NCBI GenBank assembly: GCA_005808665.1
Contig: SYLG01000107.1
Span: 1 to 64,000, forward strand
Origin: Planctomycetia bacterium
GTDB taxonomy: Bacteria; Planctomycetota; Planctomycetia; Gemmatales; Gemmataceae
Direction: 5' to 3'
Length of the DNA stretch: 64,000 bases
This document shows positions 899 to 18,920 of this stretch, piece after piece. The translations under genes were made by a program, and so were the position numbers. The first letter of the stretch is position 1. Each line of letters opens with the position of its first letter. A model generated the notes under the pieces. That model was given only the letters and a program-made list of their open reading frames with translations. It searched no databases and was not told the origin of the DNA.

Positions 899-3700
899 AT
901 GGTATACACTTGGCGAAACCTTTTGGTGTCAATGGGTTTATGGCTAGGGATTGCTCCGCTTTGCCTTGCCCAGCAGGCACTCAATCTGGGATTTGAGGGA
1001 CGCGAAACTTTTTTTCAGGCAGGGCAAGCAACCGGGCCCGTAACGGTTCAAAGCCACCGGATTACCGAAGAGATTTTTCACAGCGGCCAACGCTGCGAAG
1101 AGTTGAAAATTTCGTTATCCAAGCCGTCCTATGTGCCCTATTTTATCGACATTGGCAAAGCCCCTGTCTCGGAGGAGCTTGCGATCGGGAGTTGGATTAG
1201 GGCCAATCGGCCGGGCATTCAAATCCTTTGTCGGGTGGTTCTTCCCAAGGAACGCGATCCTGCCAACCCGGATCGGGCTTTAACCGCTGTTCTTCCTGGG
1301 GATATTTACCAACTAACCAATCGGTGGCAGCAATTAAGCATTCGTCAACCCACCAAAAAACTCAAAGAGCAGCAACAAATCCTGCAACTTGAGGCCAAAC
1401 GCCAATTGTCCATTGCGGATGCCTATGTGGATTCCATTTTGGTAAATGTTGGCGTTGGGCCAGGCAATGTGGAGGTTTGGTTTGATGACCTTGAAGCTGG
1501 GCCTCTAAGCGAGGCCAAGAACCCCACCGGTTTGGCTGGTCAAGGCGGGACGCCTTCGGCAGCAGTTCCCGGGTCCATTGCAAGGCGGATTTCCGAAGTC
1601 AAGGTCCGGGGGAATCACCTTGAAGTGGGTGGGCAAAAATTTTTCCTTCGGGGTGTAAGGCATTCGGGGACCCCGTTAAAAACGCTTCGGGATGCTGGGT
1701 TCAACACCTTGTGGCTGGATGGGGCAACCCCACAAGGATTGTTGGATGATGCGGTTACCCAGGGGTTTTGGGTGGTTCCCGGGCTTGGGCCCATCGCCTC
1801 CGAAACGGTTTCAGGCAATGGAGAAACACCTGGCACCCTTACAGGTGGTGGCAATTTAACCAGTGGTTCGGTAAACGGGGCGTTGCTTTCCAGGAAGATG
1901 GGGCGATTTTTGGAGCAGGATGCGGTCATCGGGTGGGATCTTGGTTCCAATTTGGCGATGGAGAAGGTCACGCAGACCGTTCGCATGGCCCAGTCGTATA
2001 AAAATGCCGACCCGAATCGACCGGTTTTTGTGGATGTGGCGGATGGATTTGGCCGGTTTGCCAAGGGAATAGACCAGGTCCTTTTGGGGGCTCACCAATT
2101 TCCCCTTGGGACGACTCTGGAATTGCCCGGATATCGTGATTGGTTGATGCAAAAGCGCAACCTTTCACTTGATGGGGTATACACCTGGACCTGGATTCAG
2201 GCCCAGCCTCCGGAATGGACCGCCCCATCGTTTCACCAGGAGGCAGGAACCTCGGCGGATCCGGCCGGGCCCTCTCCCGAGCAGATCCGGTTGCTGGCGT
2301 ACACCGCCATTGCCAGCGGTATCAAGGGACTTGGATATTGGTCGGATGGGGCCCTGTCCGATGCCCAGGCCGGCCGGGACAGGTTGCTTCAGATGGCGCT
2401 ATTGAATCAGGAATTCCAATTGTTGGAGCCAGTACTTTTGGCAGCGGAGAAACCGTATTGGATCGAAACAAGTCACCCGGATGTTAAAGCAGCGGTTTTG
2501 CGATCTGAAAAGTCGATTTTGGTCCTTCCCATCTGGATGGGAAGGGGAGCGCAATGTACTGTTCCCCAAGGAGCGGCAGCGGAGTTGGCCATGGTTATCC
2601 CGGCCATTCCCGCAGGTCACCAGGCTTGGGAGGTCAGTCCCCACCAGGTGCGTTCGATCCCTTGGAAAAGGGTGACTGGGGGTTACCGGATCGTATTCAA
2701 GGAATTCAATTTAACCGGGGCGGTGGTCTTTACTTCGGACCTCAGCCCTACCGGGCTTGTGGTGCGCTTTCAGGATTTGCAACGCAAGATGGTGCCAACG
2801 GCTGCCCAATGGGCAGTGGACCTGGCGGGGATCAGCATCGACCGGACGGCAAGAATTTATGCCGACATCGAAGCCCAGGGCAGGGGACAACCGGATGGTC
2901 AAGCCCTCATTACCAAGGCGAAATCCTATTGGGAAAGTGCTCGTAGCCATTTCAATTCAGGGAACCACCAGGACGCCTACGCCGAGTCGATGCGGGCCAT
3001 GAGGCCCCTTCGGATTTTGCAAAGGGCTTGTTGGGACCATGCTTTGATGGAATTTGACAATTTGGTGGCGGCCCCAGGGTTGTCCGGGTTTTACAGTTTG
3101 CCCGGTCATTACAAATGGCTTGCCTCAACAGGAGGCCTCAAAACAGGGGAAAACCTTTTGCAGGGGGGCGATTTTGAATTGATTGGAGGGCAATCCCCTC
3201 AAGGGTGGATGACCCAAAGGGACATCCCTTTGGAGGATGTCCTGCCTACGATTCAGCGGACCCGTTTGGCCAAACATACAGGTGCGCAGGCTTTGGAATT
3301 GAAGCTTGATGCCAAGGATCCAAACAATCCACCGGCCGCCCTGGAAAGGGCTTTGTTGGCGATACACACGCCCGATTTGAAAATGGCGCCAGGAAGTTGG
3401 GTGAAACTTTGTGCGTGGCTCAATGTAAGGCAACCTGTGGCTGGTTCCGTGGATGGGGCTCTTTTTTATGACAGCGCTTCGGGGGAACCCCTTGCTTTTC
3501 GTACCACCCATACACAAGGTTGGCGAAAAGTAACGCTTTATCGTCAGGTTCCTATTTCCGGCCGCATTCGTGCGGTAGTAGCTTTAACAGGCTTGGGGTC
3601 GGTTCTGGTGGATGACCTCACTATCGAGCCTGTTTTAACCAGCCCTGAAAAACCGGGTTTTACCACAAATACCCGCACTCAGTTGGGCAACAATCCATAG
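899..3700 (+). CDS. Exported glycosidase-like protein with carbohydrate-binding-type modules
   Basis: The protein begins with a signal peptide ([19 protein letters not shown], cleavage near CLAQQ), so it is exported. I chose ATG 899 over an upstream TTG because GGAGG (889-893) sits five bases before it. Residues ~25-200 look like a jelly-roll carbohydrate-binding-type module (ending [10 protein letters not shown]). Residues ~220-560 resemble a TIM-barrel glycoside-hydrolase-like region ([14 protein letters not shown], then [13 protein letters not shown]), as in families where a heading sentence about the hero residue is followed by a barrel. The C-terminal ~160 residues repeat a binding-type module ([12 protein letters not shown] ... 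[11 protein letters not shown]). I could not assign catalytic acids, so enzymatic activity is uncertain. Its 3' end overlaps the 3' end of dapA, transcribed oppositely, by 22 bp. Confidence 0.7.
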
Positions 3701-5470: not shown

Positions 5471-6688
5471 ATGACAAAGCGTTATTTTGCGGAGCCCTAT
5501 CAGTTCGTTGTACCCGAGGAATCGACCTGGTTCATTGAATTATTCCGTCATATCACCCCGTTTTACTATCCTTGGGTTTTGAACCTGAAACGATGGAGTT
5601 TTCCGGGTTTGGAATATCTGCAAGAGAGCTATCAAAAAAACGCTGGGATCCTCCTTTGTTCGAACCATCAAAGCGGTATAGACCCCCTTCTGCTTGGAAA
5701 ATTGGCGGAGGCATCCGGAAGGTGGATTCATTTTATCGCTTCGCACCACCTCTTTAAGGAGGGCGAAATACTAGGGGAAGTCATTCGTCGCCTGGGTGGG
5801 TATAGCATTTTTCGTGACGGACCCGATTTGTCAAGCGTCAAGAAAACAATCGACCTTTTGTGTAAGGGGAAACGAGCCGTTCTGGTGTTTCCGGAGGGCA
5901 CCTATCTGAAACAAAATGACAGGATTGGTCCCCTCCTGGAGGGGACCGGTTTGATTTTGCGCAATGCTTTGAAAAAGGCAACCCGGCCAATGGTGGTCCA
6001 CCTTATTGCCGTCAAATATTGGTTTTTGGAAGACCCTATGCCATCACTGAGGCATAAATGGAGCAGATTGGAAAAGGAATGGGGTTTAAGGAATGCTTCC
6101 CAAGAGGATGACCTGAACCGGTTGGAGGCGATCCTTCGTACCGGGGTGGTCAGGCTTTTGGGAAACGAGGCGAAAATGGTTTTGCAGCAGGGTTTTTTGA
6201 GGAATGAGGACTTTGACACGGCATTAGGCCGGTTGGTCGCCAACCACTTTGAGGTGGAACCCGCAAAGGTTGGTGATCCCAAAGCATCCATTGGGCTTGC
6301 CATCCGCAAACAAAGGCAAGGATTGATCAGGGAATTGGCCCAAACGGCGGGATTCCCAAAAGAGGAGGAATCGGTTCAGGAAAAACTTGCCTCCCTTTTG
6401 AAATGGGAAAGTGTAACCACCCTTTCCATGGACTATGTTCGGGAAAAGCCAACGGTGGAGAGGATATGGGAATCCTTTGCCCGATTGGAAGAGGCCTTTA
6501 CCGATTGTGAATCGGTATTTCCGGTTCCCGTGGAGGCGGTTTTGTCCGTCAGTGATGGAATCGATATTTCGGCCCAGAGGAAAGGGATGAGCCTTGATCC
6601 CCAAATGGGAGATTTCGGTAGTAAGCTCCGCCAAAGGATGCAAAACCATTTGGATTCCATTACCTTGAAAAGCCCAATCGGGCGGTAA
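5471..6688 (+). CDS. PlsC-type 1-acylglycerol-phosphate acyltransferase-like protein
   Basis: The N-terminal half carries the glycerolipid acyltransferase signature: NHQSGIDP (the H-x4-D catalytic motif, near residue 65) and VFPEGT (near residue 145), so it probably transfers acyl groups to lysophospholipids or a related acceptor at the membrane. The C-terminal ~200 residues are an extension without a motif I know. ATG 5471 is preferred over TTG 5453, though no strong ribosome-binding site separates them. It lies 107 bp upstream of btaA on the same strand, which suggests, but does not prove, a joint role in membrane lipid synthesis. Confidence 0.8.
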   Translation: MTKRYFAEPYQFVVPEESTWFIELFRHITPFYYPWVLNLKRWSFPGLEYLQESYQKNAGILLCSNHQSGIDPLLLGKLAEASGRWIHFIASHHLFKEGEILGEVIRRLGGYSIFRDGPDLSSVKKTIDLLCKGKRAVLVFPEGTYLKQNDRIGPLLEGTGLILRNALKKATRPMVVHLIAVKYWFLEDPMPSLRHKWSRLEKEWGLRNASQEDDLNRLEAILRTGVVRLLGNEAKMVLQQGFLRNEDFDTALGRLVANHFEVEPAKVGDPKASIGLAIRKQRQGLIRELAQTAGFPKEEESVQEKLASLLKWESVTTLSMDYVREKPTVERIWESFARLEEAFTDCESVFPVPVEAVLSVSDGIDISAQRKGMSLDPQMGDFGSKLRQRMQNHLDSITLKSPIGR

Positions 6689-13767: not shown

Positions 13768-14592
13768 TCAAACCGGTCGGGTGGCCACGATTTCAAGAAC
13801 CATAGGGGAGGTCATCAGGCTTGACCTGGATTTTTTGACACTATCAAGCCGTGCATGGAACGCATTCGCCCACTCCAAGGTAACTGTTCCGTTTTCAAGG
13901 GACCGTTGGGTATTGACCCGCATAAAGCCTTCGATCCATTGCCAAACTGGTTCTCCCGGACGAGCACAAAAAACATGGGGCCTCGCCGATACAAGGGTGA
14001 AACCCAATGTGTGCAATGCTCCTACCAACGAAGGAGCGACATCCGGTTCTCCACCTGTTTCACGCCAGGAGGTCATCACCCGGGTTACAAAATCCAAAAC
14101 CATCGGTTCATGGGGAAGCATCCGCCAGGAAGCGTAATCGAGGTATTCAAAAAAAATTGCCGTTCCGCCAGGACGAAGGAAATCATGGATGTTTTGCACC
14201 AGTTTCAATGGTGACGAAACAAAGGAGGCTACCCAACGACACCAGGCGAAATCCATGCCTTTTACAGGCAAATTGTCCCCCATAAGGTCTGCCGTTTGGA
14301 TGGTCACATTTTGAATCCCTTGGGAAAGGACTTGTTCCTTTGCCGCATTTGAAAAATTGATTGATCGTTCCAGGCCGATCACTTGGCCGGTTGGGCCAAC
14401 CACAGGGGCAAGGTCAAGGGTGGCAAAACCTGGACCACAACCGACATCCACAACCCGGGACCCGGTTTGAATCCCCACCCTTTGCCAACAAGCCAACACA
14501 GTGTCCTTCCAAACGCCATGTTGAAATGAAAGGCGATCAAACTCGTCGGCGTTTGTGCCAAGTACATAATCCGTTTGGCTTGTTTCACCCAT
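13768..14592 (-). CDS. Class I SAM-dependent methyltransferase
   Basis: A 274-residue methyltransferase with motif I VVDVGCGPGFATLDL near residue 50, an acidic second strand (VIGLERS) and the later LRPGGTAIFFEYLDY. Residues ~150-270 form a cap-like C-terminal part without a known motif. The substrate is unknown; small-molecule methylation is likely. It reads away from the selenoprotein candidate and its start overlaps upstream sequence on the other strand only, so the region 14593-14850 is a shared divergent promoter region. Confidence 0.82.
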   Translation of the reverse strand: MGETSQTDYVLGTNADEFDRLSFQHGVWKDTVLACWQRVGIQTGSRVVDVGCGPGFATLDLAPVVGPTGQVIGLERSINFSNAAKEQVLSQGIQNVTIQTADLMGDNLPVKGMDFAWCRWVASFVSSPLKLVQNIHDFLRPGGTAIFFEYLDYASWRMLPHEPMVLDFVTRVMTSWRETGGEPDVAPSLVGALHTLGFTLVSARPHVFCARPGEPVWQWIEGFMRVNTQRSLENGTVTLEWANAFHARLDSVKKSRSSLMTSPMVLEIVATRPV

Positions 14593-14850
14593 TCGTTTTT
14601 TCCTTTAATAACAAGGTGCTTATATCGGTTTTTTGTCCGGAAAGGGCTGGTATTGGGCCATCAAACTTTCACCCTAAATGCCTACTGTCCCCTAGGTCGT
14701 TGGTTTGGTTTCTTTCCTTTGGGGATTTTATGGGCCCTTGTCGGGCGGAGCAAAGGTTGCACCATGAACCTCAGGCCAACATTTGGAATATTCCTAATCC
14801 CAACAAAAGAACGAAAAGGCTTTCATGATTTGTCCAACAAGGGGAGGGAA

Positions 14851-16080
14851 GTGATCCTTTTTATCCAACAAATACCTGTAGTTATTTTTTTGGTTTTGGG
14901 ACTAATGGGCCCTTGCCTGGTTGCCCAGGATACACCTATCCCTCCCCGGGTCAAGTTCCAAGCCCTTTTGAAAGAGTATCAGGGTGCGGCATCAAGTGGC
15001 AAAGTCCTAACCGACCAGGAGAGATTGGCGTTTGTGGGCCAAGCCTACATCCAGAGGGACAAAATTGCCTCGAAATTTGTCGACCTTGCCTTGAAGCATC
15101 CAGGAGATCCGATCGCTCTGGATGCGTTGCTCCAGGCCATTTGGCAGGTAAACACAACCCCCTGGCCGGTGGAAATTGTGGGTCGGAACAATTCCTGGCT
15201 ACGGGCATTTTCAATCTTGGTCCGGGATCATTTAGGCAGTGAAAAACTTGGCCAGGCGTGCATGCGACTTTCACCAGGATTTCGTAAGGAGTATGAAACC
15301 TTTCTTCGTACTGTTATGGAAAAGAGTCCAAGCAAGGCGAATCGGGGTCAGGCGACCATTGCCCTTGGAAATTTCCTTGCGAACCGAAAACAAAGGGTGG
15401 AAATCATAAAAACGGACCCCATGCAATCCACTGCATTTGAAAACCTGTTCGGGAAAGAATACCTGAACGGTTTGCTCCAAAGGGAACCGATAATAGCCGA
15501 CCGGGAAGTTGAGGCAATACTAAAACTAGCCATCAGGGACTATGGCCATGTGAAATGTGAGGATGGGGGAACCGTTGGGGATTTGGCCAAAGCCAGCCTG
15601 TTTGCCCTCCGTAGTCTTGGCGTTGGGGCCAAGGCGCCAGAAATCGAGGGGCGAGATCAAGACGGTTTGCTAACAAGGTTGGGGGATTACAGGGGTAAGG
15701 TGGTGGTCCTGGATTTCTGGAGCGAATACTGACTTTCTTGAAGGGCCCATTGGCCCCACGAGCGGTCGCTCGTGAAAAAATGGGAAGGGCGTCCATTTGC
15801 AATCCTTGGGGTCAACATCGTTGGTCATCAACCCAAAGAGTTAAAGGCGGTAATGGAAAAGGCGATGATTCCCTGGCGATCTTTTACCGACACAGGCCCA
15901 ATAGGGAGAGGTCCAATTGCAACCCAATGGAATTTTCCTGCCACCCCAACCTTCTATGTCCTTGATGGCAAGGGAATTATCCGTTACAAATGGGTAGGCA
16001 GTCCCGCGGAAAGGGTAATGGACAGCGCAATAGAAAAACTGGTCAAGGAAACCGAAGGGATTGGGGAACCCAAGCATTAG
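14851..16080 (+). CDS. TlpA-like thioredoxin-fold protein, likely selenoprotein with UxxU motif
   Basis: An exported protein (signal MILFIQQIPVVIFLVLGLMG, cleavage near LVAQD) with an unassigned helical region (~30-255) and a C-terminal redoxin domain. The domain begins GAKAPEIEGRDQDG and runs through GKVVVLDFWSEY to TGA 15730-15732, LS, TGA 15739-15741, then RAHWPHERSLVKKWEGRPF and on to the stop at 16078, all in one frame. In TlpA/AhpC-TSA proteins the two TGA positions are the CxxC cysteines, so the natural reading is Sec294-x-x-Sec297. The cis-Pro loop is ATPTFYVLDG. GTG 14851 follows a GGGGAGG ribosome-binding site; ATG 14764 is possible. A hairpin after the second TGA fits a bacterial SECIS. 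No selA, selB, selC or selD is in the window, so host capacity is unproven. A conventional annotation would show a truncated gene plus a fragment from 15772. Confidence 0.82.
15742..15775 (+). promoter_or_regulatory. Candidate bacterial SECIS element
   Basis: CACGAGC (15757-15763) pairs perfectly with GCTCGTG (15768-15774) around the apical loop GGTC. The loop starts 22 bases after the second TGA and 31 bases after the first, both inside the 16-37 base range known for bacterial SECIS elements, and G is present in the first two loop positions as required. A second short hairpin (GGGCC, loop CATT, GGCCC; 15743-15756) lies between. The element is inside the coding sequence, as is usual in bacteria. 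Confidence 0.65.
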
Positions 16081-16093
16081 TTCGGTTATTGTA

Positions 16094-16306
16094 CTATAGG
16101 GAAGTAATAGTTGGATCCCTTTTGTCCACAATGGCGATTTGTAGCAGATTTGTTTCAGGGGTCCCGGTGGATTTTTCTTTGCAACCGCCACATCCTTTGC
16201 CGCAACCACCCCGGGATCCGCGAATCCTCAATTGAACCTGATAAAGTGCGAACGCCAAGGCCCCTGCCACACACAAACCCGCCAGTATTTGTTGGAAACT
16301 CTCCAT
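16094..16306 (-). CDS. FeoB-associated Cys-rich membrane protein
   Basis: A ~70-residue protein with one N-terminal membrane helix (QILAGLCVAGALAFALYQV) followed by a Cys-rich stretch, GGCGKGCGGCKEK, as in the small proteins found behind feoB in many bacteria. It starts 12 bp after the feoB stop. Its role is thought to lie in FeoB function or metal handling at the membrane, but this is not established. An upstream in-frame extension to 16408 would run into feoB and was rejected. Confidence 0.8.
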   Translation of the reverse strand: MESFQQILAGLCVAGALAFALYQVQLRIRGSRGGCGKGCGGCKEKSTGTPETNLLQIAIVDKRDPTITSL

Positions 16307-16317
16307 AAAAAAGGGTC

Positions 16318-18450
16318 CTAACCCCAGATCCATGTTCCCAATTGAAACGCCACCCATGCTCCAGCATAGGCCAGAATGGTCATGTAAGTGAAGGTGAAAA
16401 GAGGCCAAAACCAGCTATTTGTTTCACGACCAATAACCACCAGGGTAGACACACATTGGCAACATAAGGCAAAAAATACCATAAGCGACAATCCTGCCGC
16501 GGGTGTCAAAGGCGAATCGGTGGCTTGCAATGCCTTTACAATATTGTCCTCTTCCTCCTCCTGGGCATAAAGCTGGGCCAATGTTCCTACCACGACTTCG
16601 CGGGCGGGAAAACTGGCGATTGCCGCAACTGAAAGCCTCCAATCCCAACCCAGAGGCCTGAAAACAGGCTCCATGGCTTTTCCTGCTATTCCAAGATAGC
16701 TTTGTTCTCGCCAGATTGCCTGCCAATGCAAGGCTTCCTCGCCTTTACCTTCCTGTTTCAACAAATTGACCCGTTTGGGATAGGAACCCCCTTTGAGGTC
16801 GTTGGTGGGAAAATAGAGTAACGCCCAAATCAAAACCATGGCGGCAAGGATCGTACTCCCTGCCCTGCCCACAAAGCTCCATCCCGCATCCATAACTTTG
16901 TGCAGGACACTTTTCCAATTGGGAATCTGATATCGGGGAAGCTCCAGGACAAAAAGGGGAGCTGGGCCGTGTAAAAGGGTTCGTTTGAGTACCAGGGCAA
17001 CCAATGGTGCCAATATCAGACCCAACATATACATCGCAAATAACATTACCCCCCCAAGCCAGGGAGAGTGCCCAAGTTCAGGTGCAAAGCAAGCCGCTAC
17101 CACAAGGGTGTACACCGGGAGGCGGGCGGAACAACTCATCAGGGGAGCAACCAAAATGGTGGCAAGGCGATCGCGGCGATCTTCTATGACCCGTGTGGAA
17201 AGGATGCCAGGTACGGCACAGGCCAGCGACGAAAGCAAAGGAATGAAGGATTTGCCACTAAGCCCGCATCGGGCCATGAGGTGATCCACCAAAAAAGCGG
17301 CTCGGGCCATGTAACCTGTGTCTTCAAGGATAGCCAACAGGGTGAAAAGGATGCATATTTGGGGAAGGAAGACTAGGACTCCACCTACTCCCTGAATGAT
17401 GCCGTGGGCCAATAGGTCCGTAAATGGCCCTTCTGGCAAGGTGGTAAGGACCCAATCCCCCAACATTTCGTGAATTGCGGAAAGCCAATTCATGATTGGG
17501 GTTGCCAACAAAAAAACCGATTCAAAGACTAAAAACATTGCTAACAAGAAAAATAGCGTTCCTGAGACAGGGTGGGTAAGCCAGGCATCCAACCGGTCGG
17601 TCCATGATACCCCAGCCTTGGGTAATTCCTGGACGCCCACGAGCCGTTTGCGAATATCCTCATACCGTTGGATGGATTCTGCCTGGGGTAAAAGGAATCC
17701 TGAATCTGCAAGCCCTTTTCGGGCTTTGGCGAGCGCCGATGCCAAAAGTGGTTTTTCAAGAATCAGGTCTTTTGCCGCCTCCCCATCGGTGTCAAAAAGG
17801 GCTCGGCGGATCATGAAATCCGGAGTTTCCTTTTTGCAAAGGGTTTTAACCTGTTCAGTCTCCTTAACCAAGGCAAGTGGCCAATCCATAGGCTTGGGTT
17901 TTGGGGTCTTTTGATACCCCAAAATGGTATCCAAAAGGATGTCGATACCCACCCCTTTAACAGGGTGTACCCAAACCACCGGGCAACCCATCCGTTCGGC
18001 CAAAAGGTCACACCGGATCGTGGCTCCTGCGGCCTCGGCCATATCCACCATGGTGAGGCAAATAATGAGGGGAAGATCTACCTCAAGCACCTGGTGAACA
18101 AGGTATAAATTGCGCTCCAGGTTGGTTGCATCCACCACCGCAACCACCACATCCGGGCGGCACTCCACACAATGAAGCCCCAACAATATCTGGGTAGGAA
18201 TGAGCTCATCTGGAGAACGGGCTGCAAGGGAGTAGGCACCAGGAAGATCCAAAAGATCTATGGGAACTCCCTTGTGAAGGACGGACGCTTTTTTGATTTC
18301 AACCGTAACACCAGGATAGTTGGCGGTGTGCTGCCTCAATCCGGAAAGGGAATTAAAAAGCGTGGTTTTCCCTACATTGGGATTGCCTACCAATGCAAGG
18401 GTAATGGGTTTCAGAGGAGCAGGAAATGCCTTTGCCACCAGTGGAATCAA
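16318..18450 (-). CDS. feoB: Ferrous iron transporter B
   Basis: FeoB imports Fe(II) across the inner membrane. The N-terminal G domain has G1 GNPNVGKTTLFN and G3 DLPGAYS; the G4 position reads LTMVD where most GTPases have N-x-x-D. The C-terminal half has many membrane segments with gate motifs (for example SLACAVPGI and FPAREVVVG). The likely start is TTG 18450, overlapping the feoA stop (TTGA), with GTG 18438 as an alternative; the longer frame to 18513 lies inside feoA. Operon order is feoA-feoB-Cys-rich protein. Expression is usually controlled by Fur, but I did not find a clear Fur box. Confidence 0.92.
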   Translation of the reverse strand: MIPLVAKAFPAPLKPITLALVGNPNVGKTTLFNSLSGLRQHTANYPGVTVEIKKASVLHKGVPIDLLDLPGAYSLAARSPDELIPTQILLGLHCVECRPDVVVAVVDATNLERNLYLVHQVLEVDLPLIICLTMVDMAEAAGATIRCDLLAERMGCPVVWVHPVKGVGIDILLDTILGYQKTPKPKPMDWPLALVKETEQVKTLCKKETPDFMIRRALFDTDGEAAKDLILEKPLLASALAKARKGLADSGFLLPQAESIQRYEDIRKRLVGVQELPKAGVSWTDRLDAWLTHPVSGTLFFLLAMFLVFESVFLLATPIMNWLSAIHEMLGDWVLTTLPEGPFTDLLAHGIIQGVGGVLVFLPQICILFTLLAILEDTGYMARAAFLVDHLMARCGLSGKSFIPLLSSLACAVPGILSTRVIEDRRDRLATILVAPLMSCSARLPVYTLVVAACFAPELGHSPWLGGVMLFAMYMLGLILAPLVALVLKRTLLHGPAPLFVLELPRYQIPNWKSVLHKVMDAGWSFVGRAGSTILAAMVLIWALLYFPTNDLKGGSYPKRVNLLKQEGKGEEALHWQAIWREQSYLGIAGKAMEPVFRPLGWDWRLSVAAIASFPAREVVVGTLAQLYAQEEEEDNIVKALQATDSPLTPAAGLSLMVFFALCCQCVSTLVVIGRETNSWFWPLFTFTYMTILAYAGAWVAFQLGTWIWG

Positions 18451-18698
18451 TGGATAGAAGTTTTTTGAAGGTGGATACGGGCCGCCTCTTGCCGCCTTAA
18501 ACCCAAACGCCAATTGCCAACCCGCAACCGGAGGGGATCGCCCCAGGGAGCCCGACCCAATAATTCGATCTCAACTCCCCTTTGGAGGCCAAGATCACCA
18601 AGGCGTTGACTCAAGTCATCGGTCCCGTCGACATGCGTAACCCAAGCGATTTCCCCAGGGCGAAGTTGATCCAGGGAACAAAAATTCGAAGGGGTCAT
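18447..18698 (-). CDS. feoA: Ferrous iron transport protein A
   Basis: A small SH3-like protein (about 83 residues) with the FeoA pattern: LRPGEIAWVTHVDG near the start, QRLGDLGLQRGVEIELL in the middle and LRVGNWRLGLRRQEAARI at the end. FeoA is a cytoplasmic partner that supports FeoB transport. I chose the ATG at 18698 because the FeoA fold begins right after it. It overlaps the feoB start by four bases. The 220 bp up to pyrF hold the divergent promoters. Confidence 0.9.
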   Translation of the reverse strand: MTPSNFCSLDQLRPGEIAWVTHVDGTDDLSQRLGDLGLQRGVEIELLGRAPWGDPLRLRVGNWRLGLRRQEAARIHLQKTSIH

Positions 18699-18920
18699 AG
18701 AGATATTCCTGATATTGAGACTAAATCTCAACAAGAACGCATTCCCCTACAGTCTAGGTCCAGCTTTGGGTCCTGTCCAATCTTTTTTTTGCCATTTTCC
18801 CAAATTTCAAAAGGTTTAAACCCTTCCCCTACACCCATTCCCTGGAGGAATCCTAAGAAGACAGTTTGGACTTCCTGACGGCGGTTGAGATTCCTTGGCC
18901 TGTGGGATTTTGGAGTTGGC

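Follow-up and report, generated by a model that had tools for sequence, protein, structure and literature searches.

A planctomycete TlpA/ResA-type redoxin gene with UGA at both catalytic positions and one putative bSECIS hairpin: a predicted double-selenocysteine protein

A gene at 14851..16080 (+ strand) of the window, the whole 64,000-nt stretch of DNA analysed here, very probably encodes a double-selenocysteine (Sec) thiol/selenol oxidoreductase of the TlpA/ResA type, predicted to be exported, with the active-site motif UxxU and a single putative SECIS element that would decode both UGA codons. As read from the frame and from its relatives, the product has 409 residues including two Sec, a GTG start and a TAG stop. 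UGA1 (15730..15732, +) stands for the first Sec, at the N-terminal catalytic position, and UGA2 (15739..15741, +) for the second, at the resolving position; these two TGA codons are the sole interruptions of a frame that runs from upstream of 14764 to the TAG at 16078-16080. The translated active site reads ...DFWSEY-U-LS-U-RAHWPHERSLV...PATPTFYVLD... (in full, ...RGKVVVLDFWSEY-U-LS-U-RAHWPHERSLVKK...PATPTFYVLDGKG...).

The first-pass annotation of this DNA had described one continuous frame with TGA in place of both redoxin cysteines, had foreseen that automatic calling would break the gene and leave a fragment from 15772, and had judged the cis-proline loop ATPTF (15943..15957, +) to be well kept. 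Our reading of 14851-16080 agrees on each point: a standard ORF listing splits the gene into 14575-15732 and 15772-16080, and TPTF is kept in most alignment rows. The GTG at 14851, also that annotation's choice, is a plausible start, as a purine run (AGGGGAGG) lies just upstream and the resulting length matches that of the relatives; the purine-rich stretch AGGGGAGGG at 14840..14848 (+) is the putative ribosome-binding site. The ATG at 14764 is an alternative start. Scans of the sequence for sigma-70 promoters and terminators gave nothing clearly above chance.

The C-terminal part of the protein is a redoxin domain of TlpA/ResA type (15619..16065, +), recognized by Pfam (AhpC-TSA, PF00578, 1.5e-14; Redoxin, 2.4e-10), by its best match among solved sequences in the PDB (Bradyrhizobium TlpA, 1jfu, 3.7e-11) and by Foldseek, which returns ResA-type oxidoreductases with a TM of 0.88 over the domain. 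Taken together, sequence and model show a redoxin fold in which helix 1 begins with the catalytic pair and the cis-proline loop is present. The active site is UxxU instead of the CxxC by which TlpA/ResA proteins are recognized, and we assign the protein to this group by fold and sequence. In an AlphaFold2 model built with 30 family members (mean pLDDT 85.7), the N-terminal domain is all-helical and precedes the redoxin; this helical domain, at residues about 32-255 (14944..15615, +), has no match in a Pfam search. Ahead of it lies a hydrophobic N-terminus (MILFIQQIPVVIFLVLGLMGPCLVAQ, 14851..14955, +), a low-confidence stretch of the model that is predicted to be a signal peptide or anchor and that is also found in related sequences. 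This segment is our basis for proposing that the protein is probably exported or membrane-anchored. On the grounds of selenium chemistry, the redoxin may also be 'strongly reducing', as the first-pass annotation had it.

The source genome, a 4.48 Mb draft in 186 contigs, encodes the machinery that Sec insertion would call for. Profile searches identify selA (533 bits) with an adjoining selB (335 bits), whose product includes the beta-barrel and the winged-helix domain 3 (SelB-wing_3), together with selD (354 bits) and a tRNA-Sec (70 bits) with anticodon UCA. The selD gene (L069; G000:C155:15072-16007, - strand) is a selenoprotein gene in its own right: its catalytic GU site, which reads SCAGUAGK, contains an in-frame TGA. 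The genome therefore has a second gene whose Sec-type UGA lies at an established position, although selD lacks a GGUC hairpin of the kind seen in the redoxin gene. When the same genome was searched with a covariance model of the UGA and hairpin region, the UxxU gene was the one strong match; the runner-up (E 0.002) falls in a CxxC paralogue, and the other TlpA-like paralogues of the genome contain no TGA.

An open frame with UGA inside it is also what would be seen if UGA were read as some other amino acid, through a variant code or general readthrough, and nothing besides the open frame speaks for this. Of the 34 long ORFs in the window, counted with the truncated ORF of the UxxU gene, 17 end in TGA, more than in any other stop codon, so TGA is not reassigned across the genome; relatives have Cys at both positions, and the tRNA-Sec has the UCA anticodon. 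We consider such recoding extremely improbable. A further tRNA-Sec candidate (50.5 bits), close to the G006 gene, found no confirmation with ARAGORN and was set aside.

The same double UGA recurs well beyond this genome. Protein searches of 59 related genomes, and then of 398 genomes of the class, found, in four families, genes with double in-frame TGA codons at the same positions, along with about 20 UxxC genes and many CxxC genes at identical positions, so that U and C alternate at exactly these two sites. A pattern scan (double TGA plus hairpin) over a collection of 84,980 species genomes returned 37 stretches, from Planctomycetota and Verrucomicrobiota; most of the relatives' records are MAGs, and single phylum labels therefore need care. 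Counting 37 distinct frames including the window gene, together with L082, L097 and L116, there are at least 38 other UxxU genes, among which L023 has decayed, while in L072 and L097 the similarity fades shortly past the motif. One carrier from the pattern scan, Paludisphaera soli JC670, is a named strain, which opens the claim to direct test.

These relatives bear on two simpler accounts of the TGA codons. Were the gene a decaying pseudogene, they would be ordinary nonsense mutations, and a visibly decayed copy does exist in the same genus (L023). The TGA pair, however, occupies both catalytic sites in no fewer than 38 further genes from different species, nearly all otherwise intact in frame, and the window copy has no lesion besides its two TGAs. 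Selection also continues past them: dN/dS (NG86) after the UGAs is 0.05-0.56; downstream of them the gene is at least as well conserved as upstream, and both parts are under purifying selection. Recurrence and downstream conservation together exclude chance, in line with the first-pass annotation's argument against random decay, and we regard a pseudogene as very unlikely. Errors of sequencing or assembly in both codons are a natural concern with a draft of 186 contigs and with many relatives that are also MAGs, but the identical double TGA occurs in many independent assemblies, including that of P. soli JC670, and an RNA hairpin tracks the UGAs; we give this explanation almost no weight. The sequences indicate that the gene is a member of a conserved family of UxxU redoxins, not a single oddity.

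A tree built from 70 domain sequences places the 36 UxxU rows together on one side of a branch (99/90) that is recovered in 100% of 200 bootstrap trees and lies beside the UxxC rows; the UxxC-bearing group is the larger one. The simplest history suggested by these sequences would be a single change from UxxC to UxxU.

The putative bSECIS element is the hairpin CACGAGC-GGUC-GCUCGUG at 15757..15774 (+), with its apical loop at 15764-15767 and an MFE of -10.5 kcal/mol; it encodes HERSLV. The published bSECIS model calls for a loop of 3-9 nt, a stem of 4-16 bp, G in the first two loop positions, a spacing of 16-37 nt from the UGA and an MFE of at most -7.5 kcal/mol (PMC13188914). The hairpin, whose loop follows UGA2 by 22 nt and UGA1 by 31 nt, agrees with every rule of this model for both UGAs. 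RNAalifold independently predicts the same hairpin and nothing else. The 45 nt that follow UGA2 fold with an MFE of -21.5 kcal/mol; codon-preserving shuffles average -10.3, and 0.05% of them attain the native value.

Conservation of the hairpin follows the presence of Sec codons. Among loci fetched without using the hairpin sequence, 9/9 UxxU and 17/18 UxxC genes (26/27 U-forms) have the six-pair stem, against 0/12 CxxC genes. Within UxxC genes, which were not selected by the pattern, zero codon entropy among conserved columns is found only at four consecutive codons, CAC-GAG-CGG-TCG (H, E, R, S), and all other conserved columns vary synonymously. The nine UxxU genes obtained in the same pattern-free way keep these four codons and the next leucine invariant, as well as a few other columns of this small set. 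These codons are thus frozen in U-forms. The CxxC relative L121 provides a natural control: it has the identical peptide HERSLV, written with the codons CACGAGCGCTCACTC, and the loop is lost. Compensatory pairs occur in two genes only (L058 and L065), covariation being scarce because the hairpin is so invariant.

A second short helix, GGGCC-CAUU-GGCCC, lies 5′ of the hairpin at 15743..15756 (+), forms in most of the UxxU genes only and is of uncertain role. Its pairing counts raise the alternative that the UxxU selenoprotein uses separate signals, the hairpin for one UGA and an unrecognised element, perhaps this helix, for the other: 87% of cells pair in UxxU genes versus 42% in UxxC genes, and the helix loop lies 15 nt from UGA1. 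That spacing, however, is just under the 16-nt minimum, most genes lack an apical loop that starts with G, and the helix is broken in several UxxU genes (L019, L021, L022). It shows no covariation beyond shuffles and is absent from the RNAalifold prediction, so we rejected it as a second SECIS; it may be a by-product of conserved WP codons. Moreover, UxxC genes have their UGA at the UGA1 position, where it is already served by the main hairpin. We therefore think separate signals unlikely, and prefer a single shared hairpin: no other consensus element was found in the 16-37 nt range that applies to each UGA.

In the mechanism that we propose, SelA, SelD and tRNA-Sec, whose genes are present, would produce the Sec-tRNA, and SelB would bind the conserved GGUC-loop hairpin at 15757-15774, whose geometry would allow it to serve UGA1 and UGA2 alike. 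With one hairpin and two UGAs 9 nt apart, two successive SelB deliveries would be needed, and the yield may be low. The N-terminal hydrophobic segment would then direct export or membrane anchoring. By analogy with the fold, the redoxin domain would alternate between a diselenol and a diselenide state: the first Sec would attack an oxidised substrate, the second would act as the resolving residue, and re-reduction could come from a DsbD-type or other thiol pathway, with one DsbD_TM protein in the genome. UxxU would have arisen once, by a Cys-to-Sec change at the second position under a pre-existing SECIS; that element would come from a UxxC ancestor and would have served the first UGA there. 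On balance, we favour the broader proposal that a lineage across Planctomycetota and Verrucomicrobiota has kept one SECIS driving two Sec insertions nine nucleotides apart, possibly helped by the UxxU-specific helix, to yield an exported diselenide redoxin.

At G000:C118:13607-16485, a CxxC redoxin match adjoins this DsbD_TM protein, the only one in the genome; it is a candidate electron-delivery route to extracytoplasmic redoxins.

UxxU redoxins were described by the first-pass annotation as known but rare, and the literature concurs. Prx-like thiol:disulfide oxidoreductase selenoproteins (PF00578) are catalogued as UxxC and rarely as UxxU, a motif also listed for MerA-like and FmdB-like families (PMC9312934, PMC13188914); GOS Prx-like 2 proteins are marine metagenomic UxxU redoxins with low similarity to the SelP N-terminal region (PMC2398784); and SelL of aquatic animals has a diselenide (Shchedrina 2007, as cited in PMC2398784). 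Our finding is thus less singular than it sounds. Planctomycete selenoproteins are the subject of PMC4807772, in whose main text we found no UxxU redoxin family, and we did not find the planctomycete UxxU family in the openly available main texts that we searched.

The gene shares with the catalogued Prx-like oxidoreductases, whose listed record is WP_010940744.1, an AhpC-TSA domain (PF00578), the existence of UxxC and UxxU forms and a predicted redox role; unlike the descriptions of those proteins, it belongs to a planctomycete family with a helical N-terminal domain and a shared hairpin as analysed here, the comparison being one of motif and domain. With TlpA, ResA and CcmG (DsbE) it has in common the fold, the position of the catalytic pair and the cis-proline loop, and it would probably be exported as they are, but it differs in having Sec for both catalytic Cys, a helical N-terminal domain of ~220 residues and no conserved neighbours. 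SelL, a eukaryotic family, resembles it in motif alone, and GOS Prx-like 2 is likened to it, as a UxxU redoxin, by description. Among NCBIfam models none reaches the protein above its cut-off: WAxxUGC_long (NF041054) and the TUGYCR redoxin (NF053656) show weak redoxin similarity (8.5e-5, 22 of 300 bits cut-off, and 0.0034, 17 of 100 bits cut-off, respectively), so far below their curated cut-offs that current models miss the UxxU family. The gene therefore adds a conserved double-Sec redoxin family that standard gene calling splits and that lies beyond these models. With its UxxC and CxxC relatives, including natural controls that have the same peptide and no hairpin, the family is a good system for studying how one bSECIS serves two close UGAs, and it also suits the question of what advantage a diselenide offers over a disulfide in an active site outside the cytoplasm.

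Clustering of the ORFs that neighbour UxxU loci revealed no conserved operon partner and so no pointer to a substrate; it yielded pieces of the UxxU gene and weak groups of two or three loci, with clear shared neighbours only in the same-genus pair. The other member of this pair, L023 (G002), is a syntenic orthologue with a FeoB gene downstream. It has decayed through TAG codons in the reading frame, a frameshift and a tandem duplication of 18 nt, itself in frame, that starts in the SECIS hairpin, although the duplication and frameshift could partly be assembly errors. In G001, of the same genus, a protein search found no close match to the UxxU gene. The gene is thus dispensable in some relatives within the genus.

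Some genomes carry additional copies or relatives of the gene. In L107, two divergent UxxU genes lie next to each other on a single contig, with TGA pairs in the matches at 3150-3193 and 5712-5755 (- strand), and more than one UxxU gene is also present in G044, G047, G162, G251 and G257. L120 (G271:C269) has tandem TlpA-like genes, one of which is UxxC with the hairpin; its neighbour has the active site SLPS, with Ser at both catalytic positions, yet keeps ACGAGC-GGUC-GCUCGU, possibly reflecting a recent loss of both catalytic residues. In the window itself, the UxxU gene is followed by a FeoB-like gene (16318-18513, -), with a small Cys-rich ORF (16094-16408, -) on one side of it and a FeoA-like ORF (18447-18734, -) on the other, all three recognized from their translations; the FeoB-like neighbour is kept in G002.
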